Shown here: positions 12,247 to 51,648 of the stretch, in pieces
Position numbering within the stretch: the first letter of the stretch is position 1
Layout: each line of letters opens with the position of its first letter
NCBI RefSeq assembly: GCF_007748195.1
Contig: NZ_CP037920.1
Coordinates: 5,857,800-5,921,799, forward strand
DNA: 64,000 bases
Reading direction: 5' to 3'
From: Gimesia aquarii
GTDB taxonomy: Bacteria > Planctomycetota > Planctomycetia > Planctomycetales > Planctomycetaceae
Position numbers and translations under genes: made by a program
The notes under the pieces: model-generated
The model's database searches: none
What the model saw: only the letters and a program-made list of their open reading frames with translations
Told to the model about the DNA's origin: nothing

Positions 12247-12261
12247 TGACATATCCTTAAA

Positions 12262-22505: not shown

Positions 22506-22854
22506 TGAATTCAAAAAAACTTTGTGTACAACCTGTATTTTCGATTCAGATATCATTTGCTTTAAACGTTGAAAACACGATCTTCTCAATGATCTCTCCA
22601 AGATACGCTAAAATAAGGCTTTTCCACCTGCCACATGCGAGTAAAATGAGTGAAACACACTAAAATTTTAACGCTGGTAACTTGCATCGAGTTTTGAAGT
22701 AAATCCTTCCTTTTACAGCCCTTCTTCGATTGGAAGGAAACCCCTGTAATTTATTGATTTATGGTCGCAAAGTCCTATCTCAGGCATTACGATAGAGTTA
22801 ACGGAACTATCTGCGCCCTGCAGTGTTTACCTTTGTAGAAAGGTGTTAAAACGG
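22506..22854. other. Promoter region of the moxR operon
   Basis: This is the only long gap before an 18.5-kb run of plus-strand genes, so it should hold that operon's main promoter. I see a ribosome site GAAAGGTG just before the moxR ATG and a short CCTTCC...GGAAGG pairing at about 22705-22740. No convincing -35/-10 pair is present. A 52-codon frame overlapping the purL stop is discussed among the rejected items. Confidence 0.4.
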
Positions 22855-23931: not shown

Positions 23932-24808
23932 AGCAATTTCCCGAATTTCTCGATTGGAAATTCGGGCACGTTCAATTGTCGAAGGGTTCCTGTCTGGATT
24001 GCACCGTAGTCCTTTTTTTGGTCAATCGGTGGAATTTGCTCAGCACCGTGAGTACGCACCTGGAGATGATGCGCGAAATATTGACTGGAAGGTCTGGTCA
24101 AAAACAGACAAATACTACATTAAACAATACGAAGAAGACACAAATTTAAGAACGACATTATTGGTTGATGTCAGTGAGTCGATGCAGTTTGGTACAGGTC
24201 CACTCAATAAGTATGAATATGGCTGTACCGCGGCTGCCGCTCTGGCATATCTTCTGTTGAAGCAACAAGATGCAGTTGGTTTGATTACATTTGATGATGC
24301 CATTCGTTCCAAAGTTCAGGCATTAAGCAAGCGAAACCACCTAAATGCCTTGCTCACTGCACTGGCAACAGAAAAACCTGCTCAAAAAACTGACATTTTC
24401 GACGTATTAAAAGAAGTCGCCGAAACTCGGTCTAAAAAAGGAACCATCGTTCTCATTTCCGACCTGTTTGTGAATCGGGAAAGCCTGTTTAAAGGCTTAA
24501 GACTATTACAATATCGGGGACACGATGTGATGTTGTTGCATATTCTAGATGACGAGGAACTCGATTTCAGTTATGCAGGTACAACTCGCTTTGAAGGGAT
24601 GGAAGAGACCGGAGAACTTGTATGTGATCCTCGTTCTTTAAGAGAGGGTTACCTCGACGCAATGCATGATTTTTTAAATGAAATCAGAAGGCGTTGTGCC
24701 AAAAATAAATTTGACTATCAAACAATACGAACCAGTGAATATTTAGACGCAGCTTTAGCACATTATCTCAACCATCGAATTGGTATGCAACAATCCATTA
24801 GACAATAA
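23897..24808 (+). CDS. DUF58 domain protein, MoxR partner
   Basis: This 303-residue soluble protein begins at a GTG inside the end of moxR, implying translational coupling. The N-terminal segment [21 protein letters not shown] and the block [20 protein letters not shown] (about 50-70) are diagnostic of DUF58. The second half has a von Willebrand A-like fold with a MIDAS-type DVSESM (about 92-97) and ISDLF. DUF58 proteins are obligate genomic partners of MoxR and are thought to be regulated by or to regulate VWA membrane proteins; the molecular task is unknown. Unlike many homologues it has no N-terminal membrane pair. Confidence 0.9.
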
Positions 24809-24867
24809 GCACTCCCTCAACTTCAGACCTTAACAAGCTTTAACTCAATTAACTGATAACGCATTTT

Positions 24868-27135
24868 ATGGAAACATGGTTAACACAACATTTTGTGAAT
24901 TCCACGCTGGTCTACGCCGGTGCGTTGATGGTTGCTGCGCCTATTATCATTCATTTAATAAATCGCTTTCAATACAAACGTGTTCAATTTGCAGCAATGG
25001 AATTTCTGTTGCAAAGCCAGCAGACGAATCAAAGGAGAGTATTGCTCGAACAATTACTACTCTTGTTGCTACGAATTCTGCTGATTATTTGCCTATTATT
25101 ATTGATTGCGCGACTGATTCTCGATCCTAATCAATTATCAATGTTTCGTGGTGCTAAATCACATCATGTAATCGTATTGGATGATAGTGGTTCGATGCAA
25201 AGTATCTGGGGGGAGCAAACTGCTTTTAATGAAGGTCTACAGGTGATTCGTAAAATTGTGGCAGAAGGAACGAATCGCCCTAACACAGAAAAATTATCTC
25301 TGATCGTACTCTCTCGTGCTGATGCACCACTTTTTTTACAAAGAGACATTAATGAAGAACTCATCAATGAACTGGATGCAAAGCTGACTAACCTTACCTG
25401 TTCACACCAGAGCCTCGATCTGAATCAAGGCTTAGAGACGGCTGCGGACTTGCTCAATGAAGACCGTGCTGTGATTAAAACTCTCCATTTGATTTCTGAT
25501 TTCAGAAAGTCAGACTGGCAGGATAAAAAAGGAATTGCCTCCACCATCGAAGAATTCAGTAATGATGACATTGCCATTAATTTAATTAAAACGGTCCCCG
25601 ATTCTCAACCGAATCTGGCAATTACCGAACTTTCTGGCGCAACAGAAATGGCTGCCGTTGATATTCCTCTGCGTTTAAAAGTCAGGATCAAAAATTTAGG
25701 CGATCAGGTCGCAGAAAATGTGCGGGTTGCCGCATTTGTTGATAATAACAAGCTACCAATGAGTATTGTCTTTGACAAAATTGAAGCGGGAAGTGAAATC
25801 TCCCAAGACTTTGACGTTGTTTTTAATAAGCCCCATTTACATCAAGTCAAAGTCAGTCTGACAAATGATGTGCTTGCCGGCGATAATGAACGATTTCTGG
25901 CCATTAATGTCAAACCTTCAAATCCCGTATTGATCATTGATGGTAATCCCTCTGGTAACGAGTGGATATATATTCAAACGGCGATTGCCCCCGATATTGC
26001 GACAACTGGATTTGCACCTTCAGTTGAAAGTTTAGACTATCTTCGCAGACATCCCTTAAATCAATTTAAAAATATTTATCTACTGAATGTTGCCGAGCTT
26101 CCACTCGATGCGATCACTCCTTTAGAAGAGTTCGTCTCTGCAGGTGGAGGCTTAATCTGGTTTGTTGGCCCTTCAATCCAACCAGACTTTTATAACGATA
26201 AACTATATAAAAATGGGAATGGACTCTTTCCCGCCCCGCTAGAACCATCGCCTCGAGAGTTACCGGCGCGAGAAACCAATTCCACTGTGGATATGCAAGT
26301 CAGTGATCACCCTCTCTTTTCCGTATTTGCAGGTCAGGACAATCCACTCATTGAAGCAGTCACGATCTCAAAATATTTCCCTCTTTCACAGAGATGGCTG
26401 CAAACAAAATCACAAAATGCATCGGGCGTTAATGTGATTGCCACTCTTAGAAATCAAGAACCATTTATCATTGAACATCGGTTTGGTAAAGGGCGAATTA
26501 TCACTTGTCTAACATCAGCAGGTCCCTTACTTTCGAATGAAGGCGAACCCTGGAACTCCTGGGCACTCAACCCGAGCTATATTGTGTTTCAATTGGAATT
26601 GCAAAAATACCTGGTCCAATCTCAATCCCACGAACAAGCAGAAATTGTTGGCGATCCGATTGCATTTTCTCTCGACGCCTCGTTGTACTCTGATGAGATT
26701 CAAATCCAGACACCCACTTCCGAGGGCGAAAGAACCATCAGGCTCAAAGCGTCACCTAAACAAATCACAGATGCGACACAGAGTGGTTTATTACAGTTAA
26801 TAACGACTTACCGAGAAACAGATCAGCCCGGTGTCTATTCCGTACAATTGAAACGACAAGATCAAACAATTGAACAAAAAATGTACGCGTATAACTTCCC
26901 AGTGACAGAAAGTAATCTGGAGTTGACAGCTTCGGATGACTTAATCAAACAGCTTGGAAATAATCCACAAATCCAAATTCAGGAACCGGGAGAGTTCCAA
27001 TGGATTCAAGGGCAGGAAGCAGGTCGGGAAATCACCAATACTATTTTAATACTCCTGTTTCTTTTACTAATCTGTGAACAGCTATTGGCATACAGGTTAA
27101 GCTATCATCCTAAAGTAGCGGGTGCTGTAGCATGA
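24868..27135 (+). CDS. BatA-like VWA membrane protein with N-terminal double TM
   Basis: The protein has 755 residues. The N-terminus is the typical BatA-type double membrane domain: TM at about 13-32 ending in HLINRFQYKRVQFAAMEFL, then TM at about 60-85. A VWA domain follows with the metal-ion site DDSGSMQ (about 104-110). The middle has a CARDB-like beta domain (LRLKVRIKNLGDQVAENVRV) and a glutamine-amidotransferase-like fold (about 350-450, VLIIDGNPSGNEW, SAGGGLIWFVG). One membrane helix lies near the C-terminus (about 722-742). It shares an ATGA overlap with the next gene. By family it works with MoxR/DUF58 at the inner membrane; its ligand is unknown. Confidence 0.88.
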   Translation: METWLTQHFVNSTLVYAGALMVAAPIIIHLINRFQYKRVQFAAMEFLLQSQQTNQRRVLLEQLLLLLLRILLIICLLLLIARLILDPNQLSMFRGAKSHHVIVLDDSGSMQSIWGEQTAFNEGLQVIRKIVAEGTNRPNTEKLSLIVLSRADAPLFLQRDINEELINELDAKLTNLTCSHQSLDLNQGLETAADLLNEDRAVIKTLHLISDFRKSDWQDKKGIASTIEEFSNDDIAINLIKTVPDSQPNLAITELSGATEMAAVDIPLRLKVRIKNLGDQVAENVRVAAFVDNNKLPMSIVFDKIEAGSEISQDFDVVFNKPHLHQVKVSLTNDVLAGDNERFLAINVKPSNPVLIIDGNPSGNEWIYIQTAIAPDIATTGFAPSVESLDYLRRHPLNQFKNIYLLNVAELPLDAITPLEEFVSAGGGLIWFVGPSIQPDFYNDKLYKNGNGLFPAPLEPSPRELPARETNSTVDMQVSDHPLFSVFAGQDNPLIEAVTISKYFPLSQRWLQTKSQNASGVNVIATLRNQEPFIIEHRFGKGRIITCLTSAGPLLSNEGEPWNSWALNPSYIVFQLELQKYLVQSQSHEQAEIVGDPIAFSLDASLYSDEIQIQTPTSEGERTIRLKASPKQITDATQSGLLQLITTYRETDQPGVYSVQLKRQDQTIEQKMYAYNFPVTESNLELTASDDLIKQLGNNPQIQIQEPGEFQWIQGQEAGREITNTILILLFLLLICEQLLAYRLSYHPKVAGAVA

Positions 27136-29591
27136 GTTTTTTTTCTCTCATTCCTGATTCATTGATCTTGGCTGTAGACGAAACAACTGCGTTTCGTTCG
27201 ATCGAGTATGATACGCCCGAATCAGGCTGGGGGTGGATGCTATTACTTTCTGGCCTGATTTTTGTTCTGGTTCTCTCTTTCCGAACTTCCTGGAAAGACT
27301 CTTTCCAGCTCTCTCTTCCCTGGCGTTGCTGGTTAATTGGATTGAGACTCAGCGTATTAGTCGCTTTGATGATCATCGTGTTCAATCCACATGAACGAAC
27401 TCAGAAAATGTCATTTCGTCCATCGCGGGTGGCGGTTTTGATTGATACCTCGCTCTCGATGCGGCATCCAAATCAACAAATTCCTGTGAATTCAAGCTCA
27501 CCCGCCAATCGTACTGTTCCCAGTCGTATGCAGGCTGTGGAAAAACTACTGTCTGAATCACCATTAATTACAGATTTGCAAAAAAAACATCAGGTCAGCG
27601 TTTATACATTCGATCAAAACTTAACTGGGCCACATCATGTCTTTCAAAGAGAACAAGCTACGGATATAGCGATTAACCAAAATCTCGAGCCTAATACCCA
27701 AAGGAAAACGACATCCCAAATCGATTGGAACAGCCTCTTGCAACCTCAAGGACTGGAGACAAGATTAGGAGAATTACTGGGACAGTTAATTCGAGAGATC
27801 AATGGGCCTACGCTCTCAGGGATCATAATTGCCACGGATGGTGCTTCGAACGCAGGTACTGATTTACTTAGTGCTAATGAAACAGCAAAGGAGTCAAAGG
27901 TTCGCCTGATCACACTCGGCGTCGGGAGTCCCACGAAACCAGCGAATGTACAAGTCTCGAAAATTATTGCTCCCACAGACGTGCAATTTGGTGACAGTTT
28001 CGAAATCACTGCACTCCTGCAAGCAGTCGGAATGCCGGGCAAAAACATTACAGTTGAATTATTGAAAAAATTAGAAGGAGAAGCACAGCCTACAGTCGTT
28101 GAGTCGCGCGATATTCTCCTGCCCACAGAAGAAGGTTTGCCTCTTGATGTGAAATTTGAACGCATCCCCAGCGAAGAAGGTGAAATCAGTTATGTGATTC
28201 GAGTGCGGGGAAATCAACTGGTACAAGATGCCAATGCAATGGACAATGAGCTGGAACATTCAGTCAATGTTTTCAGTCGTCCAACAAAAGTGCTGATTAT
28301 AGCCGGCGGGCCAATGCGTGACTACCGTTTTGCACGCACGATGCTCTTTCGACATCCTTCTATCAAGTCAGATGTCTGGTTGCAAACAGCGTCTCCTGGT
28401 GTCACTCAGGATGCCGACCAGATGTTATTTGAATTCCCAGAACGAACCGCATTGTTTGAGTATGACGTGATACTTGCCTTCGATGTGAATTGGGAACTGC
28501 TTTCACAGGAACAAATGCAAACTTTGAATGAATGGGTTGCAACCGGAGGCGGGGGAATTGCTCTGGTTGCCGGCGATGTATACACACCTAAACTTGCCCG
28601 GGATATTGAACGATTTGAACCAATTCTCGACCTATATCCCGTAGCCATCAACTCATTTGTGCGTGATTACCTTGATGAAGAAGCGACTCAAATCCGCAGA
28701 ATTGAGTGGACTCAAGCAGGCTTGGATATCGGTTCTCTCATGTTGACCGATGATCCGGCGACGTCCAAACAGTTATGGGAAAATTTCCCTGGTATGTACC
28801 GGTGCTATCCTTCTAATGGTGCCAAAGCTGCCGCTACCGTCTATGCCTATTTCCCTGACCCCAAAACACAGACTGAATTCGGTTTCCCAATATTGATGGC
28901 ATCCCAATATTATGGCGAAGGTCGTTGCTTTTATCTGGGTAGCCCGGAACTTTGGCGTCTACGATCGATTGAAGAAGATTACTATGATCGTTTCTGGACG
29001 AAGCTTATCAGGAATATCGGGCAAGGGCGTACCAAAAGAGGTACCAAACGAGGCACATTAGTTTTAGAACGAGATGAATACTTACTTGGTCAAACTGTTT
29101 CTGTGCGTGCGAGATTACTCAATCCTGAATTTAAGCCTTTGATTCAGGAGTCTGTACCTATGGAAGTAACCGATCCACGTGGAAGACCTTTAGTTCCTAA
29201 TTTATTATTAATGCATGATCGAAACCGGCCAGGAGAGTATTTCACGAGTTTCCGCGCGAGTCTTGCAGGGAAATATCGCTTCAAAATCATCGTTCCCAAT
29301 TCGAAAGGACAAACTGTAGAAGGAAACCTCTCAGTTTTACTTCCCCGACTGGAAGATGAATCTTTGAGCCAAAATGTGAAAGGACTCAAAGAATTGACCC
29401 TCGATACGGGCGGTACTTATCTTGCCATTGATGAAGCAGCACAGATTCCGGCACTCTTACCTGATCTGGGGGAAGAGTTTTTAGTAGACGAACGCCTGAA
29501 AACCCTCTGGGATCAACAATGGGTTTTCTTTCTGTTAGCCGGACTTTTGGCAACAGAGTGGCTTACTAGAAAGCTATTTAAATTGTCATAA
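27132..29591 (+). CDS. Second VWA/glutamine-amidotransferase-like membrane protein
   Basis: This 819-residue protein starts in an ATGA overlap with the preceding VWA gene. Two membrane segments (about 34-54 and 65-83) precede a VWA domain with MIDAS residues DTSLSM (about 105-110) and TDGASNAG. It continues with a beta-rich region, a GATase1-like domain (VLIIAGGPMRDYRFAR at about 388-403; GGGGIALVAGD near 472), a further beta-sandwich and a final membrane helix (about 795-812). No GATase catalytic Cys is apparent, which is usual for this branch. It is a paralogue in layout of the 24868-27135 product, and the two may form a heteromer. Confidence 0.85.
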   Translation: MSFFSLIPDSLILAVDETTAFRSIEYDTPESGWGWMLLLSGLIFVLVLSFRTSWKDSFQLSLPWRCWLIGLRLSVLVALMIIVFNPHERTQKMSFRPSRVAVLIDTSLSMRHPNQQIPVNSSSPANRTVPSRMQAVEKLLSESPLITDLQKKHQVSVYTFDQNLTGPHHVFQREQATDIAINQNLEPNTQRKTTSQIDWNSLLQPQGLETRLGELLGQLIREINGPTLSGIIIATDGASNAGTDLLSANETAKESKVRLITLGVGSPTKPANVQVSKIIAPTDVQFGDSFEITALLQAVGMPGKNITVELLKKLEGEAQPTVVESRDILLPTEEGLPLDVKFERIPSEEGEISYVIRVRGNQLVQDANAMDNELEHSVNVFSRPTKVLIIAGGPMRDYRFARTMLFRHPSIKSDVWLQTASPGVTQDADQMLFEFPERTALFEYDVILAFDVNWELLSQEQMQTLNEWVATGGGGIALVAGDVYTPKLARDIERFEPILDLYPVAINSFVRDYLDEEATQIRRIEWTQAGLDIGSLMLTDDPATSKQLWENFPGMYRCYPSNGAKAAATVYAYFPDPKTQTEFGFPILMASQYYGEGRCFYLGSPELWRLRSIEEDYYDRFWTKLIRNIGQGRTKRGTKRGTLVLERDEYLLGQTVSVRARLLNPEFKPLIQESVPMEVTDPRGRPLVPNLLLMHDRNRPGEYFTSFRASLAGKYRFKIIVPNSKGQTVEGNLSVLLPRLEDESLSQNVKGLKELTLDTGGTYLAIDEAAQIPALLPDLGEEFLVDERLKTLWDQQWVFFLLAGLLATEWLTRKLFKLS

Positions 29592-29651
29592 ATACCACTC
29601 GTTATAAAAGATAATTAGTTTAACTCAATCACGTCAGCGTTAAGTAAACGA

Positions 29652-32135
29652 ATGAACGAACCGTCTAATTCATCAATACCTCATGAAATCACAAACCTGC
29701 TGAACAGGTTAAGTAAGAAAATACGTAGATACATTCTACTGGAAGGAACCGCCAGACTGCTGGCAGTCATTGGTCTCATCTTTTGGTTCAGCTTCATTGT
29801 CGATTGGGTTTACTTTCAACTCAGCCATCTTGAACTACCCATCTGGTTTCGTGCTTCCTATATTCTCATTTCACTGACTACGATCCTCGTTCTGTCTGGC
29901 AGCTTCATCTTCTTGCGGCTCATGAAAAGAATGAAACGAAAAGCATTGGCTCTGGTATTGGAAAAACGTTTTCCAGAACTAAATGATCGATTGGCTACAG
30001 CGATCGAATTGAATGAAGACAACAGACCACAAAACGCTTTAACGCAAGCGATGTTGGCAAGAACAGTGAAAGAAGTTGTGCAAGGCAGCCAGCAACTTCC
30101 ATTGGAAGATGTATTTGATAAACGCCCCTTAAGGCGCGCTGTTTTCGGGGCCTTTGCGTTATTTATTTCGATTCTTAGCCTGGCAGTCATTAACCAACCT
30201 GCCATGGCCCGTTGGGCTAAGGGGTATCTCGAACTGCGAAGCGATTACTGGAATCGTGAGACTGGTCTCATTGTGAAAGTGATTGCTCAACCCGGTGATC
30301 GAATCAAAGAGTTTCAGGATCTTTCGTATAAACATGGTCTTGGTAATGACCTGACACTGTTGGTAGAGACCGTTGACAGCACCAAAGCCCCCGAACGTGT
30401 GCAGTTGACGTATCGCATGCAGAACGGTCGTGGGGGTGGACGAACTGTAATGTCGCGCATGGGTGAAGGTCGATTTAAACATACCATTACTGATTTATTG
30501 GATGGGATTCAGGTCTGGGTCACCGGAAACGACTTTACAAACCCTGAGCCCTACGTTGTTGAAGTTGTTGAAACTCCTGTTCTCGACCAGATTCAATTAG
30601 ATTGTTATTACCCCAAATACACAGGATTAAACCAGGTTGATTCTGATACTGGTAAGCTGCTCTCAGATATGCAAAATGTTCAGGGAACACAAATCGCTCT
30701 GCCGATTAATACAAATTTTAATATGATTTCGACCGCTAATAAACCAATCATTCGGTACTCATTTGAAACCGACCAATTGAAGCTCCAGTTAGAACGAAAA
30801 ACAAGCGATCCAACTAATGCCCTCAGTAATTTCCTGGCATGGAAAAACTCAGACGGAACCGTGATAAATCAGATCGCACTCAATCGATCACAGGTTACGC
30901 AGATGATAGACTCCGATGGACGCCATTTTCGAATTCCGTTTGCTTTAATCACTGAAGAGAAACACGAAACCTCTTCTTTGAAAACAGACTCGATTCCGAA
31001 ATATATTCCCCTGCTAGCAGACCAACCCATTCGTATTTATTTAGAAGACGAGGATGGCTTACTGGTAACAGAACCAATTCGACTAAGCATCAATGGCATC
31101 GTCGATCAAGCCCCCAAAGTAGATACACAACTAAAGGGAATTGGTAAGTCTGTTACCCGTAAAGCGATGATTCCGTTAGAGGGGATCATTACGGATGATT
31201 ATGGAATTCAATCTGCTCATTTTGATTTTCTCGTCGATCAGGAAAAAGACTTCAGGCCGCGTCCTTTCCGTAAGAAGCCAACAGGAAAACCAAAAGAATT
31301 TACCCTGCAAAGAAGCGAAAAAAATCGCTGGGAGCGGTTTGAAGTATTACCACTTGATTTAAAAGTCGGACAAAAATTGAGCCTTACTGTTAAAGCCAAA
31401 GACGCCGATAACCTAAGTGGGCCACATCAAACTCATGGAGAAATTTATCACTTTGAAATTGTCACTGATGAAGCGCTGCTTTCCCTCCTTTATTCTAAAG
31501 AACTAAACCTACGAAAGCGATTTGAGCAAATTTATAAAGAAGTGAGACAAACGCGCGATGATCTAAGTCAACGCATCGAACAATTACAACACTCTCAAAC
31601 GATCAAAGAAAAACAAAAGCAAGGGCAATCAGCGCCCGGATGGCAAGCAACACTTGTAGAAATCAGCAATGCGGTTGCTACTTCTGCTGATCGCTCTTTG
31701 TATGGGACTCGAAAAAATGCGACTGAGACTGCTTCGATTGTCGAATCATTTCATGATATTCGAGCAGAACTAGTCAACAATGGTGTTGCAACTACACAAA
31801 TTCTGAGTCGCATCGATGACAAAATTCTTCAGCCTCTTACCATCATCCACCTACAAGATTTCCCTGACATTGATCAGCAGTTAGGACTGTTTCGCCTCGC
31901 AATCGAAAAAGAAGATAGTCCGTTGCAAGAAATTCAGACAAGTATTGAGCTTTTGGACGCCATGTTGGTCCGTATGCAGAATGTTCTGAATGAAATGCAG
32001 GACTTGTTGGAGTTCCATGAAGCCATTGAGATGCTGAAGAATCTGATCGAAAAGGAAAAAGAACTGACAGAAGACACAAAAAAGTTTCGCAAAAACAAAC
32101 TTTTAGATCGTCTCAAAGGGCTAGGATTGGACTAA
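29652..32135 (+). CDS. DUF4175-like large membrane protein
   Basis: This 827-residue product has an N-terminal helical part with two membrane segments (about 35-55 and 66-90) and a third at about 168-190, then a long extracytoplasmic region. The segment LVLEKRFPELNDRLATAIEL just after the second TM is characteristic of the DUF4175-like proteins that follow MoxR/VWA genes. Middle domains look beta-rich (e.g. VVEVVETPVLDQIQLDCYYP, then ITDDYGIQSAHFDF). The last 220 residues are a coiled coil with many Glu/Lys and heptad Leu. It starts 60 bases after the VWA gene. The function is unknown; position suggests a structural partner of the VWA proteins. Confidence 0.75.
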   Translation: MNEPSNSSIPHEITNLLNRLSKKIRRYILLEGTARLLAVIGLIFWFSFIVDWVYFQLSHLELPIWFRASYILISLTTILVLSGSFIFLRLMKRMKRKALALVLEKRFPELNDRLATAIELNEDNRPQNALTQAMLARTVKEVVQGSQQLPLEDVFDKRPLRRAVFGAFALFISILSLAVINQPAMARWAKGYLELRSDYWNRETGLIVKVIAQPGDRIKEFQDLSYKHGLGNDLTLLVETVDSTKAPERVQLTYRMQNGRGGGRTVMSRMGEGRFKHTITDLLDGIQVWVTGNDFTNPEPYVVEVVETPVLDQIQLDCYYPKYTGLNQVDSDTGKLLSDMQNVQGTQIALPINTNFNMISTANKPIIRYSFETDQLKLQLERKTSDPTNALSNFLAWKNSDGTVINQIALNRSQVTQMIDSDGRHFRIPFALITEEKHETSSLKTDSIPKYIPLLADQPIRIYLEDEDGLLVTEPIRLSINGIVDQAPKVDTQLKGIGKSVTRKAMIPLEGIITDDYGIQSAHFDFLVDQEKDFRPRPFRKKPTGKPKEFTLQRSEKNRWERFEVLPLDLKVGQKLSLTVKAKDADNLSGPHQTHGEIYHFEIVTDEALLSLLYSKELNLRKRFEQIYKEVRQTRDDLSQRIEQLQHSQTIKEKQKQGQSAPGWQATLVEISNAVATSADRSLYGTRKNATETASIVESFHDIRAELVNNGVATTQILSRIDDKILQPLTIIHLQDFPDIDQQLGLFRLAIEKEDSPLQEIQTSIELLDAMLVRMQNVLNEMQDLLEFHEAIEMLKNLIEKEKELTEDTKKFRKNKLLDRLKGLGLD

Positions 32136-32351
32136 AACTCTAGAGATTAAGCAAAATAATAGATTGAAGGACTGAGCGATTACCCAAGCTAAAAAAATGT
32201 ACAAAAAAACACGCTTCGGCCACAGACAATCACTTGATATAATAATAACAGGGAATTTACGTATGAGTTCTTTAAAAGGGCCAGCAATTTTACATTTATC
32301 CTCCCTTATCAGCTCTGAAATTATTATGAGAATTTTGACGGGAGAACCCGC
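32136..32351. other. Gap inside the operon with -10-like element and short leader frame
   Basis: This is the longest gap within the plus-strand operon. It holds a TATAAT hexamer (32238-32243) without a matching -35, and an AGGGA ribosome-site-like sequence followed by a short ATG frame annotated separately. An internal promoter is possible. Confidence 0.35.
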
Positions 32352-32358
32352 ATGTTGA
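32263..32358 (+). CDS. Possible 31-codon leader peptide overlapping the Gln-rich gene start
   Basis: An ATG at 32263, preceded by AGGGA at good spacing, opens a 31-residue frame (MSSLKGPAILHLSSL...) that ends at a TGA at 32356-32358. Its last codons overlap the ATG of the next gene (32352) by seven bases, the geometry of a translationally coupled leader. No recognisable attenuator structure or regulatory residue run is present. It could be a chance frame. Confidence 0.3.
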   Translation: MSSLKGPAILHLSSLISSEIIMRILTGEPAC

Positions 32359-34058
32359 ATCGTCCTCAGATCGCCGTTGTACTAATGGCTCTCGTCATAA
32401 GTATCGTCACTCCGAGTTTGTGCAGTGCTCAGGATAAGAATCCGCAAGCCAATGCCAGTAAATCAAGCGGCCAAGATCAGAAACTCTCGGACAAACAAGA
32501 GGCGATCTCTCAACAGTTTAAACGATTTGAAACGACCCTGCACGATCTAGGCGAATATATGAAAAAGACAGACCCTGCCCGGGCCGATCTTCTTTTTCGT
32601 GCGTTTGGTCAAAGTAAACAAAAACAAATGACAGTGGAAATGCAGCAAGTTCTACAGATGTTGCAAAATGGCCAATTAGGTGATGCTGTAGAACGGCAGG
32701 AAAATCTTGTCAAAAACATGCAAGCATTACTGGCGCTCCTTCAAAGTGAAGACAGAATGAGCGAAGTGGAAAAAGAGAAGAAGCGTATTCAGGACCTTTT
32801 AAAAGATGTCAATCGCCTGTTAGGACAGGAAAAAGATGTCAGAGCTGCAACGGAACGTGGTGGTAAACAAGCTGATTTAAAAAAGAAACAGAAACAAACT
32901 GCAAACAACGCTCAGAAGTTGATTGAAAAAATCGATAAGCAAGACACAGAAAAAAACCGTTCGCAAAATTCTGAAAATGACCAACGTAATAAGCAGTCTC
33001 AAAAGAGTGAAGGACAGCAAAAATCCCAGAAGGGTAAATCAGGTTCCGAGTCTAAAAATTCTCAAAAGTCAAAATCGAAAGAAAAATCTCCTCAACAAGG
33101 AAAGTCGACACCTAAAAAGCAGAGTTCAACACAACAGCAACAATCTCAACAGGGGAAGCAATCACAGTCTCAACAACAGCAGGGGCAACAAAGTCAATCG
33201 CAGCAAGGAAAGAACCAAAAGTCTCAAAGTCAACAAGAGAAGCAAACCCCTGGACGAGAGCAAATAGAACAAGCTCGACAAGAGATGGAAAAAGCGATTC
33301 AGGAACTGGAAAAAAAACAAAAAGAAGCAGCATCACAACATCAGGATGATGCGATTCGTAAATTAGCAGAAGCAAAAGAAAAACTGGAGGAAATGCTACG
33401 TCAGCTCCGTGAAGAGGAGCGAGAGCTTTTGTTGGCCGCAATGGAAGCCAGACTGCAAAAGATTCTGGCACAACAGAAACGCATTTATTCTGGTACACTC
33501 TCTATCGGGCAGGTCCCTGAAAATGAACGGAACAGTCGCCATACAGCTAGAGCCGTCCAACTGGCACGCGAAGAGAATGTAATCAGTTTAGAAGTGGAAA
33601 AGGCAATGTTATTGTTAAGAGATGAAGGATCATCCGTTGCATTCAGCGAAGCATTATCAGAAGTATGGGAAGACGTTCAAACTGTTGCATACCGTTTAAA
33701 TCGAACACAGGTCGGAGAACTGACTCAGGAAATCGAAAAAGATATTATCAGTTCTTTGGAAGAAATGATTGAAGCACTTCAGAAAGAAATGGAAAAGTCT
33801 GAAGAGCAAAAACAACAGCAGCAGCAACAGCAGCAAGGTTCTCCCAAAGACAAATCTCTGGTGGAACTGTTGGCAGAAATTAAAATGCTGCGTTCTTTAC
33901 AGCTTCGCGTCAACAAGCGTACTCGCAGGATTGAAAAAATGGCTTTGGAAAAAGACGCAAATCAGGCAGAAATTCTTGAGCAACTGCAGCAGTTATCCGA
34001 TCGCCAAACCCGAATACAAAATGCTACTTATATTCTGGCAACTGGCAAGAATAAATAA
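32352..34058 (+). CDS. Secreted Gln/Lys/Ser-rich coiled-coil protein
   Basis: The 568-residue product has a Sec signal peptide (about 8-26, [19 protein letters not shown]), a helical region (30-200), then a strongly biased stretch (about 205-310) of Ser, Gln and Lys with runs such as [21 protein letters not shown] long coiled coil follows (about 310-480), then a second poly-Gln run (about 488-496) and a final helical segment. I know of no enzymatic family. Similar Q-rich proteins recur downstream of MoxR/VWA genes in planctomycetes (from memory, unverified), which would suggest a conserved structural role in the periplasm. It precedes the helical-repeat gene by 20 bases. Confidence 0.75.
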
Positions 34059-34078
34059 TCTGAAGGCTAAAGATTAAT

Positions 34079-35194
34079 ATGAGACAATTGAACCATTTTT
34101 TGCCGAAACAACAAACATTCGATCATAAACTACGGTTGATAGTACTGGTCGCTCTCGTTTTTGCATTGGCCACCCCTCTTTCTCTACGAGGGCAAGAAAA
34201 ACAGAAAAAATCGCCTGAAGCCAAAACGGAATTATTTGCGGTCCCCGGAGCTTCTGAACTCAAAATGCATTTACAGAATTGGACTGCGGAGCAAAAAATA
34301 AAAAAACCAGACCAGTTAAAGAATGTTGCGAGCTTATTAATAAAGCTGGAGTCTCCACTTTCGAGTGAAGAAAAGCTGGAACTGGCAATACAGGTATTTT
34401 CTGAAATGAATCTGGAATCAAAACAACTAATCCAGGCATACCAGATTTCAGACCGACTCCCTCAATTTTCCAGCCATCCATTGTTAGTCGAAGGTCAGGC
34501 AGAAACGTTTTACTTGTCAAATATGCGTTATTATGTCGCAAGGAATCTGACACAATTTCGAATGATCGATCAAGCTCTGGATATGTTCAATTCCATTAAT
34601 CCGAAGTTCTTAATAGATCCCGCGGGTTATCTGTTTTTCAAAGCTGTTTGTGAACACCATTTGTTACAAAAAGAAGAATGTGAAAAGACATTGAAATTAC
34701 TTCTAAACCATACAGAAAGTGTTCCTCAAAGGTATACACAGGTCGCCACACTCATGCAGGCAGATCTGGCCGATCTTAAAGAAGAAAGTTTGGATGAAAT
34801 CTCGCGAAAAATGAGTGATGTTGAACGCAGACTCGAATTAGGAAACTCAGGAGAAAAAGTTCAAAAAGTTGAAGACGATATTATTGCCTCTCTGGATAAA
34901 CTCATAAAACAAATGGAAGATCAGGCAAAAAGCGCATCCTCTTCATCATCAGGCGCAGGTCAGTCCGGATCATCTAGTTCAGGCTCAAACGAAAGCCGTG
35001 TAAAAGGTCAGACCGCCCCTGGAGAGATCGACAAAAAAAAGTTATCTGACAACGGTGGCTGGGGACAGCTTCCTCCTAAGAAACAAGCTTCCGCCAAGAA
35101 CATTATTAACCGCAATTTCCCCTCACACTACCGCAAGGCAATTGAAAAATATTTCAAGAAGTTAGCAACTCAAAAAGCAAGTTCAAGCAATTAA
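34079..35194 (+). CDS. Secreted helical-repeat protein with Ser-rich linker
   Basis: This 371-residue protein has an N-terminal signal segment (about 18-38, LRLIVLVALVFALATPLSLR). Residues 80-245 are helical pairs resembling TPR/SEL units without a strict consensus. A Ser/Gly linker (about 280-308, SASSSSSGAGQSGSSSS) leads to a conserved-looking basic C-terminal tail (GWGQLPPKKQASAKN ... FPSHYRKAIEKYFKKLA). That tail pattern, with HYRKAIEKYF at the end, recurs in proteins of MoxR/VWA clusters as far as I recall. It starts 20 bases after the Gln-rich gene with GAAGG upstream. The function is unknown, but co-operonic placement suggests a periplasmic complex. Confidence 0.72.
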   Translation: MRQLNHFLPKQQTFDHKLRLIVLVALVFALATPLSLRGQEKQKKSPEAKTELFAVPGASELKMHLQNWTAEQKIKKPDQLKNVASLLIKLESPLSSEEKLELAIQVFSEMNLESKQLIQAYQISDRLPQFSSHPLLVEGQAETFYLSNMRYYVARNLTQFRMIDQALDMFNSINPKFLIDPAGYLFFKAVCEHHLLQKEECEKTLKLLLNHTESVPQRYTQVATLMQADLADLKEESLDEISRKMSDVERRLELGNSGEKVQKVEDDIIASLDKLIKQMEDQAKSASSSSSGAGQSGSSSSGSNESRVKGQTAPGEIDKKKLSDNGGWGQLPPKKQASAKNIINRNFPSHYRKAIEKYFKKLATQKASSSN

Positions 35195-35253
35195 AGATTT
35201 TACCGCTAACAGATTTCAACTTGTATAATAGTGAGTTATAAAAAGAGGTTTTC

Positions 35254-36420
35254 ATGCATTCTCTGCTTGTAGTTTCAATGTCAACACTGCTTGCCGTTTC
35301 ACCTGAAGTCGAATTGACTTCTTTAAATGGAGATTCTGCATCAGGGAATCTACAGTCATTGAGCAAATCTACCATCAATCTGAAACAGGGAGGAACAGTA
35401 AAAGAGATTTCACTTTCAGGTGTACTCAATATTCGATTTCCCAAAAACCGTTTTCAACGCAGCCTGCAATCACCAATTACAGTCAGGTTAACTGATGGAT
35501 CAAAATTTCCTGTCCAGTCTTTACAAAGCAATGAACGACAGATCAAAGTAAGTGGAGAGCCGACTGGAACATTAATCTTGCCAGCAAAGAATGTCTCCTC
35601 AATTCGCTTTGAGCCACTGAACTCAAATATTCGAGAAGCTTGGGAAAAGTTACTGAGAGGTAAAAATAGTAAAGATCTGCTCATCGTTCAGAAGGAAAAC
35701 GTACTTGATTTTATTGATGGTGTGATCGGTTCTGTGACAGATGAAAAAATACAATTTTTTACAGGAGATGATGAGGTCGCCGTCAATCGCAAGCGAGTTT
35801 TTGGAATCATTTATGCGAGAGAACCACTTCCAGAAACATCGTCATTTTGTACGATCCGATTAACCAACAATGGATTGATCCAGTCGTCATCAATTACATT
35901 TGCTGATAACGAATTTAAGGCAACATTACAAAACGGCATTCAAACTAAATTTGCCGCACAATCGATTGCAAATCTGGACTTCAGTCAAGGAAAAGTACGC
36001 TATCTATCAGATCTGGAGCCACGAAATATAGAATACACCCCCTTCTTCGACACTGTTTGGAAATATCGTAAGGACAAACATCGTGATGGGGGCCCACTTC
36101 GTCTAGACGGTAAAGAATATGCACGCGGACTTTACATTCATTCAAAGACACTCTTGCAATATCGCATTAGAAATCAATATCGGAATTTTCGGGCTGTTAT
36201 GGGTATTGATGATTCTGTTCCCGGAATTGGATTTGTCTATGTCGAAATCAAAGGCGACGGCCGCATACTCTATTCTGGAAATGTACGCAGTGCAGACCCT
36301 CCAGTAGAATTAAACCTCGATATTCGCGGGGTACGTGATTTTGATATTTTAGTTGATTTTGGTGATAACCTGGAAATTTGTGATCATCTCGATTTATGCG
36401 ATGCGCGCTTCATTAAATGA
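35254..36420 (+). CDS. NPCBM/NEW2-domain protein
   Basis: The ATG at 35254 has a good ribosome site (AAAGAGG). The 388-residue product has a short hydrophobic start that may be a signal peptide. Residues 20-240 are three or so repeated beta units (e.g. TVRLTDGSKFPVQSLQ, IRLTNNGLIQSSSITF). The C-terminal 130 residues form an NPCBM domain: FDTVWKYRKDKHRDGGPLRL, YARGLYIHSKTLLQYRI, FRAVMGIDDSVPGIG and VRDFDILVDFGDN. NPCBM modules are carbohydrate-binding-like domains found in planctomycete and actinobacterial envelope enzymes. Here no catalytic domain accompanies it, so it is likely a binding or scaffold component of the operon's complex. Confidence 0.82.
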   Translation: MHSLLVVSMSTLLAVSPEVELTSLNGDSASGNLQSLSKSTINLKQGGTVKEISLSGVLNIRFPKNRFQRSLQSPITVRLTDGSKFPVQSLQSNERQIKVSGEPTGTLILPAKNVSSIRFEPLNSNIREAWEKLLRGKNSKDLLIVQKENVLDFIDGVIGSVTDEKIQFFTGDDEVAVNRKRVFGIIYAREPLPETSSFCTIRLTNNGLIQSSSITFADNEFKATLQNGIQTKFAAQSIANLDFSQGKVRYLSDLEPRNIEYTPFFDTVWKYRKDKHRDGGPLRLDGKEYARGLYIHSKTLLQYRIRNQYRNFRAVMGIDDSVPGIGFVYVEIKGDGRILYSGNVRSADPPVELNLDIRGVRDFDILVDFGDNLEICDHLDLCDARFIK

Positions 36421-36486: not shown

Positions 36487-38244
36487 ATGCAGAGAAAATT
36501 CTTCTGTGCTCAGATAGTAACTAGCATTGTGATAATTTTGTTGCTGCCTGCTTCTTCAAAGTCAGCAGTTGTCGATCCAGCAGTCTTAGCAGCGCAAAAA
36601 CAGCGTATTGATGTCATTAAAGCAGTCTCTCCTTCAGTCGTTGCCATCTTTGGTGGATCTGGACAAGGAGGAGGTTCGGGCGTGCTCGTTACTCCAGATG
36701 GATATGCTCTGACAAACTTTCACGTCGTTTCTGGAGCTGGTAGCTTCATGAAGTGTGGGCTCAACGATGGCAAACTCTATGATGCTGTTATTGTGAGTAT
36801 TGATCCCACTGGTGATGTCGCAATGATCAGGTTACTCGGGCGTAATGACTTTCCCGTAGCAAAATTGGGAAATAGTGATACGGTCAAAGTTGGGGACTGG
36901 GCTTATGCCATGGGAAACCCATTTTTATTAGCAACTGATTTTCAACCGACGATTACCTATGGAATTGTCAGTGGAGTACATCGGTATCAATATCCCGCTG
37001 GAACATTTTTAGAATATACAGATTGTATTCAAGTTGATTCATCAATCAATCCAGGAAACTCAGGAGGACCTCTGTTTAATGCGCGTGGCGAATTAATCGG
37101 AATTAATGGACGCGGCTCATTTGAAAAACGAGGACGAGTTAATTCAGGTGCGGGATACGCCATTTCTATTAATCAGATCAAACATTTCTGGGATCATCTC
37201 AAGAGTGGTCGCATCGTAGACCATGCCGCTTTGGGAGCAACTGTTTCCACGGGTGCTGACTCTACGATTGATGTTTCTGAGATCCTGGAAGAATCAGACG
37301 CTTATCGAAAAGGTCTGCAGTTGGGTGATGAGATTGTATCTTTTGCAGGCCGTCCTATGCGTAGTGTAAACCAATTTAAAAATATCTTAGGAATCTATCC
37401 AGCAGGCTGGACTTTGCCGCTTGTTTATCGACGGGATGAGAAAAAGACGAAAATCTATGTTCGCCTTCAAAATTTGCATAGCGCTTCGGAACTACAGGAA
37501 CAAGCGGGACAAAAAAAAATGATTCCTGATAAGTCTCCCATGCCTGAAGACAAAAAAACTCCTCGGATTCCTAATCCACATGCAAAACCAACTGTGACAC
37601 CACCTCCAGAGAAATATAAACATCTCTACGTTCCTAAAACCGGGTTTGCAAATTATTACTTTAACCAACAACACCAAGACCGATTATTACAGACCTTAAC
37701 GGATCGTAGTGATTTTTCTGACCGTAAAGGAACTTGGACTCTGACCGGCAAGCAGATTGATGGCGATGAATTTATACTCACGTTAGCTGATAAAGGCGTG
37801 GGCTTTGAAATTGGCAATGAGGTGTTCCTGCAATCACTGGAGTCCGGAATCCTGGTGGATGAACCACCTGGAACTGGTGGCCTGTTGGCAGCTTTACATC
37901 ACTTCCGGTTATTACTATCCGGTCAGACGAAACACTTCACCGACTTTTATTACTTGGGCAGTGAACCCCTTGACGGAAAAAATGAAATGGTTGATGTGTT
38001 GGTCGGCACACAAACAGGTGCTATTTCCCGCTGGTACTTCAGTAAATCAGATCTTTCTCTGCGAGGCTTTGACTTTTATCTCACAGAAAATTCAGAAGTT
38101 TGTACAATTCGTTTTGAGCAATTTCAAACTCTCAATGGACAAGATTTCCCTAGCGAATTAGATGTCTTTATTGGAAATCGCCCCGTCATGAAATTAAAAA
38201 TTGAACGGTTGAAACTAGAAACTTTAGAAGACATGAAAAAATAG
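36487..38244 (+). CDS. HtrA/DegP-type S1C serine protease with PDZ, intact triad
   Basis: The 585-residue protein has a signal peptide (about 8-26) and a trypsin-like S1C domain with all catalytic residues: His79 in TNFHVVSG, Asp110 in PTGDVAMIRL and Ser192 in NPGNSGGPL. A PDZ domain follows (about 245-330), then a Pro-rich linker (about 345-375) and a C-terminal domain of about 200 residues I do not recognise (beta-rich, no motif). AAGGA precedes the ATG. HtrA proteins degrade or refold damaged periplasmic proteins. Two further HtrA-like genes follow directly, both lacking catalytic residues, so this is the only apparent active protease of the trio. Confidence 0.9.
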   Translation: MQRKFFCAQIVTSIVIILLLPASSKSAVVDPAVLAAQKQRIDVIKAVSPSVVAIFGGSGQGGGSGVLVTPDGYALTNFHVVSGAGSFMKCGLNDGKLYDAVIVSIDPTGDVAMIRLLGRNDFPVAKLGNSDTVKVGDWAYAMGNPFLLATDFQPTITYGIVSGVHRYQYPAGTFLEYTDCIQVDSSINPGNSGGPLFNARGELIGINGRGSFEKRGRVNSGAGYAISINQIKHFWDHLKSGRIVDHAALGATVSTGADSTIDVSEILEESDAYRKGLQLGDEIVSFAGRPMRSVNQFKNILGIYPAGWTLPLVYRRDEKKTKIYVRLQNLHSASELQEQAGQKKMIPDKSPMPEDKKTPRIPNPHAKPTVTPPPEKYKHLYVPKTGFANYYFNQQHQDRLLQTLTDRSDFSDRKGTWTLTGKQIDGDEFILTLADKGVGFEIGNEVFLQSLESGILVDEPPGTGGLLAALHHFRLLLSGQTKHFTDFYYLGSEPLDGKNEMVDVLVGTQTGAISRWYFSKSDLSLRGFDFYLTENSEVCTIRFEQFQTLNGQDFPSELDVFIGNRPVMKLKIERLKLETLEDMKK

Positions 38245-38273
38245 ATTCCGTTAGAGATGAAAGTTAATTTTCA

Positions 38274-39323
38274 GTGAAAAAAGAGAACATAGTAAAAGTC
38301 ATTTTCGTTTGTTTATGCCTGATAGGTTCTTGCTTGATAGTCCCGCTTACAGCCAAGGCCTCCTCACAATCAACGATCAATCATGCTTTACCGCGATTGG
38401 TAAAAATATTTGGTGCCGGCGGTGTAAAGAATCTGTATGCATATAGCACTGGTTTTCTGGTATCTCCTCAAGGACATATCGCTACAATTTGGAGTCCTGT
38501 TCTTGATACTGATCGACTTTCAGTTGTCCTTAACGATGGACGACGATTTGAAGCAGAAGTGCTTGGCGCTGAACCACATCTTGATCTGGCAATAATCAAA
38601 TTAAAAACAGAACGTGAACTGAATCTGCCCTATTTCGATTTTCGCGAAAAAGTAATCGCTGGTCCAGGTACACGAATATTGGGATTTAGTAACATGTTTC
38701 GTGTTGCTACAGGGGATGAACCAGTATCTGTATTGCATGGAGTGATTGAAGCTCGAACGGAATTACCTCGAAGAAGAGGTGCTTTCGAACTCGCTTACTC
38801 AGGTGATGTCTATGTTGTCGATGCCATTACCAACAACCCGGGCGCTGCTGGAGGGGCCATTTTGACTTATGATGGCAAACTATTAGGAATGATCGGAAAA
38901 CAGGTTCGAAATGCCAAAACCAACACTTGGGTCAATTACTCTCTCCCGATTGATGTATTAAGTAAAAGTATCGAGCAAATTATTACCGGCAAATTTGAAT
39001 CTAGCGAAAATCAAAAAAAACCAGAAACACAAGCACCAGAACGCTATCGTTCTGTCGACTTTGGAATGGTAATGGTACCCGATGTCCTGTATCGCACTCC
39101 GGCTTATATTGATAGTGTCCTTCCTGGTTCGTTAGTCGCTAAAGCGGGTCTGAAACCTGATGACTTGGTTGTTTTTGTAAATGATGAGCTCATTAAATCG
39201 TGTAAAACACTCAATGCTGAACTAGGAAAGCTTGAGGCTGGCGATTTACTACGTCTAGTTGTTCGTCGTGATAATCAATTGGTCTCTATTGAATTCCAGG
39301 TCCCACCTGAAAAAAATAACTAA
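38274..39323 (+). CDS. HtrA-like pseudoprotease with PDZ (His and Ser lost)
   Basis: This 349-residue protein starts at a GTG and has a signal peptide (about 8-28). It aligns through its length with the S1C domain of the upstream gene: FLVSPQGHIATIWSPV corresponds to VLVTPDGYALTNFHVV, placing Ser74 at the catalytic His. PHLDLAIIKL keeps Asp104. NNPGAAGGAIL corresponds to NPGNSGGPL, placing Ala192 at the nucleophile. A PDZ domain follows (about 255-345, with YIDSVLPGSLVAKAGLKPDD). It is therefore almost certainly inactive and probably acts as a binding or regulatory partner of the active protease 30 bases upstream. The frame is intact, so it is not a decaying gene. Confidence 0.85.
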   Translation: MKKENIVKVIFVCLCLIGSCLIVPLTAKASSQSTINHALPRLVKIFGAGGVKNLYAYSTGFLVSPQGHIATIWSPVLDTDRLSVVLNDGRRFEAEVLGAEPHLDLAIIKLKTERELNLPYFDFREKVIAGPGTRILGFSNMFRVATGDEPVSVLHGVIEARTELPRRRGAFELAYSGDVYVVDAITNNPGAAGGAILTYDGKLLGMIGKQVRNAKTNTWVNYSLPIDVLSKSIEQIITGKFESSENQKKPETQAPERYRSVDFGMVMVPDVLYRTPAYIDSVLPGSLVAKAGLKPDDLVVFVNDELIKSCKTLNAELGKLEAGDLLRLVVRRDNQLVSIEFQVPPEKNN

Positions 39324-39340
39324 TTTACAATCGAATAATT

Positions 39341-41335
39341 ATGACTCAAACAAACACAAAATTATTTCTCACTTTGACAATGATTGTCAGCGTGCATCTT
39401 CAAGCTGTCCATGCTCAGTCTTCTCGCCCTAACCTGGAATTGCTGGAAGAACGAGCCTTCAAACAAGCTGCGGCGTTTGTGAATCCCTCTATCGTCAGAA
39501 TTGAAACCGTCGGTGGGCAAGATCGCGTAGGAAAAATCGTGACCGGTACCGGCCCCACTTCCGGTGTCATTGTTAGTAAAGATGGTTTGATTATATCCAG
39601 TGCCTTCAATTTTATTGGAAAACCAACCTCAATATTGGTGACTCTGCCAGATGAACGCCGCTTTCCAGCACAGATTGTCGCGAGTGACCATTTGAAGATG
39701 CTGACTTTATTGAAAATCGAAGCACAAAACCTTCCGGTCCCTTTGGCTGTCCCTGAAAATGAAATCCAAGTTGGCATGTGGTCGATTGCCCTAGGACGAA
39801 CGTTTAATTTGGAACAACCAAGTGTATCTGTCGGAATTGTGAGTGCCTTGGAGCGAATCTGGGGAAAAGCCATTCAGACCGATGCAAAAATTTCCCCGGT
39901 CAATTACGGAGGGCCACTGGTAGACATTAATGGTCGCCTGATGGGCATTCTGGTCCCGCTCTCTCCTGGAGCAACCGGAGAAACAGCGGGCGTTGAATGG
40001 TACGACTCAGGAATCGGATTTGCGATTCCCATCCAAGATGTACTAAAAATTATTCCGCGACTGAATACCGGAAAAGATCTCTATCCTGGATTATTAGGCA
40101 TCACATTGAGTGGAAAAGGGAATCTGTCTACTGATATGAAACTGGATCGCGTTCGCTATGGAAGCCCTGCTCAAGAAGCTGGAATTAAATCTGGCGATGT
40201 TTTGACAAAGCTGGATGGCCACACCGTCAGTATGCATTCCCAAGTAAAACATGTCTTGATGAATAAGTATGCTGGCGAATCAGTTAGCCTCACAGTTACT
40301 CGAACCGGTTCAAAAGAACCTCTAACTCTTAAAGCAACCCTGGTAAAAAAACTAGTTCCATTTGAATCAGGTTTTTTAGGAATACTTCCCCAACGAGAAT
40401 TTAACGAACCATCAGAAAGAGGAGTACGTGTCCGGTATGTGTTTTCAAAATCTCCCGCTGCACTAGCAGGCCTGAAATTAAATGACCAGATTTTAGAATT
40501 TAATCGGCAGAAGGTTACCAATTCCAAATCACTGGCATCAATGGTCAACCATTTACGTCCTGGTGATTCCGCAGAATTATTGCTGTTACGTGAAGAACAA
40601 CCGTTAATAGTTAAAGTCACTTTACAATCGATTCCGCATACTGTCGAAAATACGTTGCCAAGCCAGATCGTTTCATCTAAGACTGCCCCCAAAAACAAAC
40701 CAGCTTTCAAAAAAGGGCACTTTAAAGACACGCTCCCCGGCGATGAACAAAAATTTTGGGCTTATGTCCCTGAGGACTATAATCCCGACAACCAATATGG
40801 TCTGATGGTATGGATTCACCCTCACGGAAATACGATGGAATCCAATATTTTAAATAGCTGGAAGAGTATTTGTGAGCAACGTGGAATCATCATTGTTGGT
40901 CCGACATCACAAGATGTGATTCGTTGGAATCGAGATGAATCCGAGTTTGTCAAAGAAGTCGTTGAATCAATACTGGCTCAATATTCTATTGATCCAAAAC
41001 GCATCTTTCTGCTTAGCCATACTGATGGTAGTGATTTCGCCTTCCATCTGGTATTTAAGTATCGAGAACTCTTTCGAGGAATTGCCGTCTCAGAATCATC
41101 CATAAAAAATAAGCCTCCTGAAACCGACCCTGACTTCCCACTTAGCATCTACTTTGCCTTAAATGCCCAAAACCCCTTTAATCAGCTTCTACAATCGCAA
41201 ATAGAAATCTTACGCAAAATGAATTACCCCACGGTATTCCAAATGATTAAGAGTAAAAATCAAGCTGGGCAATATCTTGACAAACCATCTTTAGAAGAAA
41301 TTGGTCGCTGGGCAGACAGCCTGGACCGAATTTAG
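39341..41335 (+). CDS. HtrA-like pseudoprotease, two PDZ domains, hydrolase-like C-terminus
   Basis: The 664-residue protein has a signal peptide (about 8-26, ending VHAQ). In the S1C-like domain (about 35-235) all three triad positions are replaced: Phe89 for His (DGLIISSAFNF), Met120 for Asp (DHLKMLTLLKI) and Tyr189 for Ser (SPVNYGGPL). PDZ domains follow at about 250-335 and 343-430. Residues 460-664 have an alpha/beta-hydrolase look (FWAYVPEDY, GLMVWIHPHGN, RIFLLSHTDGSDFAF), but the nucleophile elbow reads S-H-T-D-G instead of G-x-S-x-G, so Thr561 sits where Ser is expected. It is the last gene of the operon, 17 bases after its neighbour, and converges on the 2226-residue gene. Confidence 0.85.
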   Translation: MTQTNTKLFLTLTMIVSVHLQAVHAQSSRPNLELLEERAFKQAAAFVNPSIVRIETVGGQDRVGKIVTGTGPTSGVIVSKDGLIISSAFNFIGKPTSILVTLPDERRFPAQIVASDHLKMLTLLKIEAQNLPVPLAVPENEIQVGMWSIALGRTFNLEQPSVSVGIVSALERIWGKAIQTDAKISPVNYGGPLVDINGRLMGILVPLSPGATGETAGVEWYDSGIGFAIPIQDVLKIIPRLNTGKDLYPGLLGITLSGKGNLSTDMKLDRVRYGSPAQEAGIKSGDVLTKLDGHTVSMHSQVKHVLMNKYAGESVSLTVTRTGSKEPLTLKATLVKKLVPFESGFLGILPQREFNEPSERGVRVRYVFSKSPAALAGLKLNDQILEFNRQKVTNSKSLASMVNHLRPGDSAELLLLREEQPLIVKVTLQSIPHTVENTLPSQIVSSKTAPKNKPAFKKGHFKDTLPGDEQKFWAYVPEDYNPDNQYGLMVWIHPHGNTMESNILNSWKSICEQRGIIIVGPTSQDVIRWNRDESEFVKEVVESILAQYSIDPKRIFLLSHTDGSDFAFHLVFKYRELFRGIAVSESSIKNKPPETDPDFPLSIYFALNAQNPFNQLLQSQIEILRKMNYPTVFQMIKSKNQAGQYLDKPSLEEIGRWADSLDRI

Positions 41336-51498: not shown

Positions 51499-51648
51499 AA
51501 TCGAAGATCGATCCCATATTGCGGGAGCAAGAAAAGTCTGACTGGAAATGATACCTTTTCTTGAGGGAACGAATACACAACGAATCCCCCACACCCGTCC
51601 TCTAAAAGCTGAAAGAATGAGAGTCTTCCGGCCTTAAAAGCAGACAGT

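Follow-up and report, generated by a model that had tools for sequence, protein, structure and literature searches.

A conserved planctomycete trio of HtrA paralogues with one intact protease and two pseudoproteases

We analysed a 64,000-nucleotide stretch of Gimesia aquarii DNA (the window; contig NZ_CP037920.1, positions 5,857,800 to 5,921,799), in which three consecutive plus-strand genes, here called P1, P2 and P3, encode HtrA-type proteins of which only the first carries a complete catalytic triad. P1 (36487..38244; 585 amino acids) is a putatively exported HtrA protein with a PDZ domain at residues ~247-313 and an uncharacterised C-terminal domain at ~370-585. P2 (38274..39323; 349 amino acids, GTG start) is an HtrA pseudoprotease made up of an S1C domain and one PDZ domain, and P3 (39341..41335; 664 amino acids) is a pseudoprotease whose S1C domain is followed by two PDZ domains and an esterase-like C-terminal domain. 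The genes are separated by gaps of 29 (P1-P2) and 17 bases (P2-P3) and all three frames are open, as a first-pass annotation of the 36487-41335 region had described. Both Trypsin_2 and at least one PDZ model scored above the Pfam gathering thresholds in each protein, with two PDZ stretches in P3, in line with its claim that the PDZ domains are kept. The signal peptides that it also proposed hold to the extent that the N-termini of all three proteins resemble signal peptides by eye and that the models of P2 and P3 start with a helix.

Triad columns were assigned by phmmer alignment of P1, P2 and P3 to DegP/DegQ chains. In P1 this placed the catalytic residues at His79 (codon 36721..36723), Asp110 (36814..36816) and the nucleophile Ser192 (37060..37062), all on the plus strand like the other codons given here. 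P2 has Ser74 (38493..38495) at the His position, retains Asp104 (38583..38585) and carries Ala192 (38847..38849, motif NNPGAAGG) at the position of the nucleophile. P1 therefore has the His-Asp-Ser triad of an active HtrA serine peptidase, and P2 and P3 are without it. For the first two genes the residues are those named by the first-pass annotation. In P3, for which it had given Phe, Met and Tyr, the absence of His, Met120 at the Asp position (39698..39700) and Tyr189 in place of the nucleophile (39905..39907) all stood, but owing to an insertion of one residue the His column may fall on either Phe89 or Asn90 (39605..39610), so that Phe alone is not certain; neither residue is His. The same alignments located the L3 sensor arginine at Arg166 of P1 (36982..36984) and Arg172 of P3 (39854..39856). 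This arginine of the GIVSxxxR motif is kept in P1 and P3 and is not found at the aligned position of P2. A column tried for aromatic trimer contacts held mixed letters in P1 and was not used.

By sequence P1 is an HtrA protein, and the AlphaFold models of P2 and P3 (mean pLDDT 85.2 and 89.2) have the HtrA fold. The P2 model matched 6jjk_F with a Z score of 25.4 (root-mean-square deviation (rmsd) 13.6 over 267 residues, with two mobile domains) and 1y8t_B with a Z score of 24.6 (rmsd 2.3 over 189), as well as the MamO structure 5hma_A (Z 23.3, rmsd 2.5 over 187). The P3 model matched 4ynn_A (Z 27.6, rmsd 7.3 over 365). Since these matches give residue ranges and not residue pairs, the reading of the triad rests on the sequence alignment.

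Triad states were then read in three sets of homologues: one from the window's order and class, one from outside the class, and a contig set of 80 loci, among the matches listed, from a scan of 566 relatives for the P3 pattern. Some genomes occur in more than one set (L252 and L220 are an example), and the counts must therefore not be summed. P1 kept His, Asp and Ser in all 80 readable of 81 order/class rows (the P1 of L067 is a truncated row with a gap), in 15/15 outside the class and in 59/59 readable rows of the contig set, from which three P1 and two P2 rows without letters were left out. In the 83 order/class rows of P2, the His column held Ser in 67, Asn in 15 and Gly in one; the Asp column held Asp in 60, Glu in 18 and other residues in five; and the nucleophile column held Ala in 53, Gly in 26 and other residues in four, with Ser in none. 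All 15 P2 proteins from outside the class were without a full triad; two had His (L225 and L229, with Asp and Ser lost) and none had Ser. In the contig set, none of the 69 readable P2 rows had His, and the ten that had Ser carried Gly at the His and Gln at the Asp position.

In P3 the nucleophile column was Tyr in 88/89 order/class rows, 15/15 outside the class and 79/80 contig-set rows, the exceptions being Val in L181 and Phe in L291. His stood at P3 position 90 in 2/89 and 4/80 rows. The L3 arginine was invariant in P3 (89/89, 15/15 and 80/80 in the same order) and was present in 80/80, 14/15 and 59/59 readable rows of P1. Partial retentions thus exist, but no P2 or P3 examined had a full His-Asp-Ser triad. 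Recovery of a triad in either protein had been named at the outset as an observation that would speak against the dead-partner idea, and no alignment recovered one. The recurrence of the same losses in homologues from the order, the class and some outside relatives is more than chance.

The trio is nearly universal in the window's order. Among 170 genomes, P1 was found in 158 and P2 and P3 in 160 each, and every one of the 58 genera has each of the three genes; G039, a genome of the same genus, holds the trio locus. All three genes occur in 153 genomes, a few of which rest on weak or partial matches (P2 in G010 and G097, P3 in G076, P1 in G165), and five have none of the three. The 17 genomes that miss at least one gene comprise 13 that are under 90% complete and four at 90-94%, one of which (G104) is without all three. 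Sporadic loss of the dead copies, the other observation named beforehand as adverse, was therefore not seen to any extent among the 170 order genomes, the exception being a few incomplete genomes that miss one or two genes. The genes are adjacent in 34/60 neighbourhoods of the order; some of the remainder are contig ends, and others have the genes at separate places in the genome.

At the level of the class, a P2 profile matched 248/297 genomes, those of the order included, at an E-value of 1e-25; four of these matches, with E-values of 8e-27 to 4e-26, do not exceed paralogue level. In 20/20 loci, chosen by their P2 matches from 14 other families of the class, P1, P2 and P3 were adjacent and in that order. 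The triad is intact in every readable P1 and incomplete in every P2 and P3 examined, the active/dead pattern that the first-pass annotation had expected of homologous operons. The P1 of one locus (L185) is broken into two overlapping reading frames (11467-13927), a possible frameshift or assembly error.

The 18 class genomes examined for lacking a clear P2 (families f2, f6 and f7; 16 of the 49 without a P2 match, plus G188 and G206 with a paralogue-level match) were also without P1 and P3 in 18/18 cases, whereas 2/2 controls had all three. Their scores, all at paralogue level, did not exceed 135 bits for P1 (controls 531 and 607), 93 bits for P2 (controls 413 and 405) and 212 bits for P3 (controls 823 and 824).

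Outside the class the trio is patchy. A P3 profile run over 392 genomes of the phylum, with three candidates scored per genome, reached at least 276 bits in 29 of at most 352 genomes from outside the class. Among 20 outside-class loci, taken mainly from the better P3 matches and thus not a random sample, 15 held the same trio (14 by the adjacency rule). With a profile built mainly from outside-class P3 proteins, scores over 149 genomes split into groups of ≥336 and ≤265 bits; eight genomes of the class fell into the upper group, as did 18 of at most 141 from outside it. This count of P3 proper speaks against phylum-wide conservation. Titles among the listed contig-scan matches were of planctomycete type except for a 'Proteobacteria bacterium' metagenome-assembled genome (L305) and a 'bacterium' (L315).

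In ten contigs, among the matches listed, P1 and P2 were found in a single reading frame of 815-1096 amino acids (5/15 trio loci outside the class and 5/80 loci of the contig set). The P1 part of these fusions keeps its triad in 10/10, and no signal-peptide-like hydrophobic stretch was seen at the P1-P2 junction in any of the ten. The fusions suggest that P2 is kept close to P1.

A maximum-likelihood tree was built from 66 S1C domains, one own-genome paralogue (L005) being left out because the motif filter detected no reading frame for it. P1 (support 100/97), P2 (100/100) and P3 (100/99) each formed one clade, with members from outside the class in all three. Either the trio therefore predates the divergence of these classes, or it has been passed on as a unit. 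Three loci from other families of the phylum (L230-L232) have a related arrangement, in which an active HtrA from the P1 group (98/91) is accompanied by P3-like proteins that lack His; one of these keeps Asp and Ser (L231:9347-10414) while two keep Asp and have Val for Ser. His may thus have been lost first, with the proviso that the placement of these copies with P3 is weak (89/50); the arrangement fits a stepwise loss of the triad that began with His, with the L231 copy as a possible intermediate. L233 and L237 are further divergent cases, and G400, the genome of L237, has a better P3 place elsewhere.

Selection on the dead domains was estimated by comparisons within the genus (15 genomes). 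For the S1C domain, the median dN/dS was 0.017 for P1, 0.031 for P2 and 0.033 for P3, from pairs with dS of 0.1-2 only (33-62 of 105 pairs), dS being near saturation; the two PDZ domains of P3 gave 0.11 and 0.14 and its esterase part 0.061. The dead S1C domains are constrained almost as much as the live one, under strong purifying selection. The view that the losses were selected and do not reflect decay is borne out by these values together with the long retention and the joint absence of the genes. That P2 and P3 are paralogues on the way to becoming pseudogenes, for which the lost catalytic residues and nothing else would speak, has next to no probability: dN/dS of ~0.03, clades that extend beyond the class, and joint presence and absence rule it out.

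Two additional domains had escaped the first-pass annotation. The C-terminal part of P3 (residues ~459-664; 40715..41332) resembles PHB depolymerase-like esterases, although its matches to NF050058 (E 2.8e-11, 43.4 bits; curated cut-off 150) and TIGR01840 (E 6.2e-5, 22.6 bits; cut-off 107.85) fall far under the curated cut-offs. In esterases of this type the nucleophilic Ser lies in a GxSxG motif. The P3 of the window has Thr561 at this position, and Ser is found in 9/89 order/class rows, gaps included; outside the class the column is empty in 14/15, where P3 is 341-446 amino acids long in 14/15. With the nucleophile mostly gone from this domain across homologues, P3 looks like a double pseudoenzyme. 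The ~215-residue C-terminal domain of P1 (37594-38241) had no Pfam or NCBIfam match. P1 also has two cysteines, Cys90 and Cys180, that are invariant in the order/class set (80/80 readable); outside the class Cys180, which lies close to the nucleophile, is mostly retained, and Cys90 is not.

The trio probably stands at the end of a MoxR-DUF58-BatA/VWA operon. Directly upstream of P1 lies a gene for an NPCBM-domain protein (35254..36420, plus strand, by Pfam), a homologue of which is upstream in 20/20 class loci. It is preceded on the same strand by genes for a MoxR AAA+ protein, a DUF58 protein, a BatA/VWA protein and a VWA protein, with three further genes (22843..35194), in a probable shared operon; at least three of the other operon genes are upstream in 14/20 class loci. 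This MoxR-DUF58-BatA-VWA operon (22843-36420), with a K/Q-rich exported-looking protein, precedes the trio in a conserved form in much of the class. By analogy the neighbourhood suggests envelope stress: the available sections of a study of the Riemerella bat operon link it to heat and oxidative stress (PMC11834572). Scans were at shuffle level for promoters (9 against 9.3 in shuffles) and gave 7 terminators against 4.8, and neither was used. Convergent with the trio, on the minus strand, are two very large genes (41402-51594; 2226 and 1171 amino acids) with no significant Pfam match.

Because the trio is kept together in many planctomycetes and absent as a whole from others, it is almost certain that the dead copies do work within a shared machine, probably as regulators. 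We give an even chance to a mixed HtrA complex that relies on P1 for cleavage, on P3 for sensing and activation, and on P2 for a structural or substrate-binding part. One exported HtrA-type system would thus divide its work among paralogous subunits, with P1 as the sole catalytic one. P3 would have given up catalysis and kept the HtrA parts for sensing and relay, namely its PDZ domains and L3 arginine; within a mixed oligomer, a signal received through the PDZ domains would pass to the L3 loop, which would order the active site of an adjoining P1. Tyr189 may plug the old active site of P3 and fix it in a single state. The other pseudoprotease, P2, has no L3 arginine at the aligned position and would most likely be a structural or substrate-binding subunit held beside P1. 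The probable task of the system is the quality control or maturation of envelope proteins. The idea of an active protease with dead partners draws indirect support from gene order, joint absence and the ten fusions.

The invariance of the L3 arginine in P3 argues for activation of a neighbour rather than gating. In human HtrA1 the L3 sensor arginine acts on the neighbouring protomer and is activating. We take this residue, HtrA1 R302, to correspond to the L3 arginine of P1 and P3 from the HtrA1 motif and not from an alignment. The arginine and the precedents of HTRA1 and MamO suggest by analogy, without proving it, that P3 is an activator in trans. We tentatively extend this, at somewhat less than an even chance, to an old hetero-oligomeric HtrA machine in many Planctomycetota, in which catalysis, sensing with activation, and a third role would be spread over three interdependent paralogues, coupled to MoxR-BatA and built around a sensor with the invariant Arg and the Tyr plug.

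Several observations weigh against such a complex. The fusions unite P1 with P2, not with P3, and the arginine argument concerns P1 and P3. Invariance of the arginine may reflect fold stability or a P3 homotrimer, and the arginine and triad columns derive from alignment of sequences. The patchy occurrence outside the class is matched within the order by exceptions at 90-94% completeness: G046 lacks P1 alone, and G123 and G124 have only P3. Several order genomes keep all three genes at distant places, which shows that the trio need not be adjacent. This dispersal, the extra domains that P3 has of its own, and MamO also favour the most serious competitor, that P2 and P3 are independent pseudoproteases (peptide scaffolds, chaperones or metal binders) serving the same process without entering a mixed oligomer with P1. 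In the available sections of the MamO study, the protein acts in part by binding metal and depends on a separate TauE-like domain to activate, and contact with MamE went undetected (PMC4794232). We regard independent action as unlikely, though deserving of weight, in view of the ten P1-P2 fusions among the matches listed, which are more telling for P2 than for P3, of the joint absence in 18/18 genomes and of the invariant arginine in P3.

The gating idea of the first-pass annotation corresponds to P2 and P3 as decoys or inhibitors, whose PDZ domains and S1C clefts would bind substrates and restrain P1 until a signal arrives. Dead active sites combined with retained PDZ domains would suit this role, but an invariant arginine that is neighbour-activating in HtrA1 is unexpected in an inhibitor, and we consider it improbable. 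Still further from likely, to the point of being very doubtful, is activity by other chemistry, with His75 of P2, Tyr189 of P3 as nucleophile, or the esterase-like domain at work. His does occur at P2 position 75 in 63/83 rows and Tyr189 is near-invariant; against this, the nucleophile of P2 is Ala or Gly in 79/83, the P2 of the window has Pro at position 75, most P3 rows are without His or an acid at the triad columns, and the esterase nucleophile is mostly missing, as described above. A mixed complex of P1, P2 and P3 remains our preferred reading.

HtrA proteins are usually described as homotrimers in which each subunit senses and cuts, and here these jobs seem to be split over three genes. 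The split is kept through the order, most of the class and scattered outside relatives, so that operonic, dispersed and fused versions can be compared. This opens a long-standing question to experiment: to what extent the neighbouring subunit is responsible for HtrA allostery, and whether pseudoproteases act as activators in nature. A MoxR/DUF58/BatA operon would also be placed in a functional setting, in bacteria whose cell envelope is unusual.

The literature search returned no paper on a planctomycete HtrA trio among the matches listed. Pseudoprotease partners of HtrA are already known from MamO; the trio is set apart by its make-up of two dead subunits and one live, by being kept almost throughout the order and missing as a set elsewhere, by the fusions, and by its Tyr/Arg signature. 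DegP, DegQ and DegS share with the trio the S1C plus PDZ architecture and the fold, and P1 keeps their triad and L3 arginine, although the Do-family model TIGR02037 (cut-off 416.2 bits) was not reached by P1 (222.6), P2 (86.2) or P3 (212.8). To our knowledge, the known forms of DegP, DegQ and DegS are homo-oligomers of active subunits. Plant Deg5/Deg8 is a mixed HtrA oligomer of two paralogues, both of which are catalytic.

The closest precedent is MamE/MamO, in which an active HtrA-type protease is genetically tied to a degenerate HtrA pseudoprotease. The available sections of the study report that MamO promotes MamE-dependent proteolysis without catalysis of its own, and that pairing of active and inactive HtrA proteins has been repeatedly selected in magnetotactic Proteobacteria (PMC4794232). 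That system belongs to other organisms and has one dead subunit, whereas the trio has two kinds of dead subunit and P1-P2 fusions. Scores for P1, P2 and P3 were far below the cut-off of 800 bits with both the MamO (NF040961; 59.9, 41.9 and 24.8) and the MamE model (NF040960; 120, 33.1 and 124.3), and neither P2 nor P3 had a TauE-type Pfam match. The mechanism proposed for the trio has been observed in human HTRA1, where, in the available sections of the report, a dead subunit restores a defective one by forming active heterotrimers with it (PMC11252331). The dead subunit of these heterotrimers was engineered; those of the trio would be natural, old and separately encoded.

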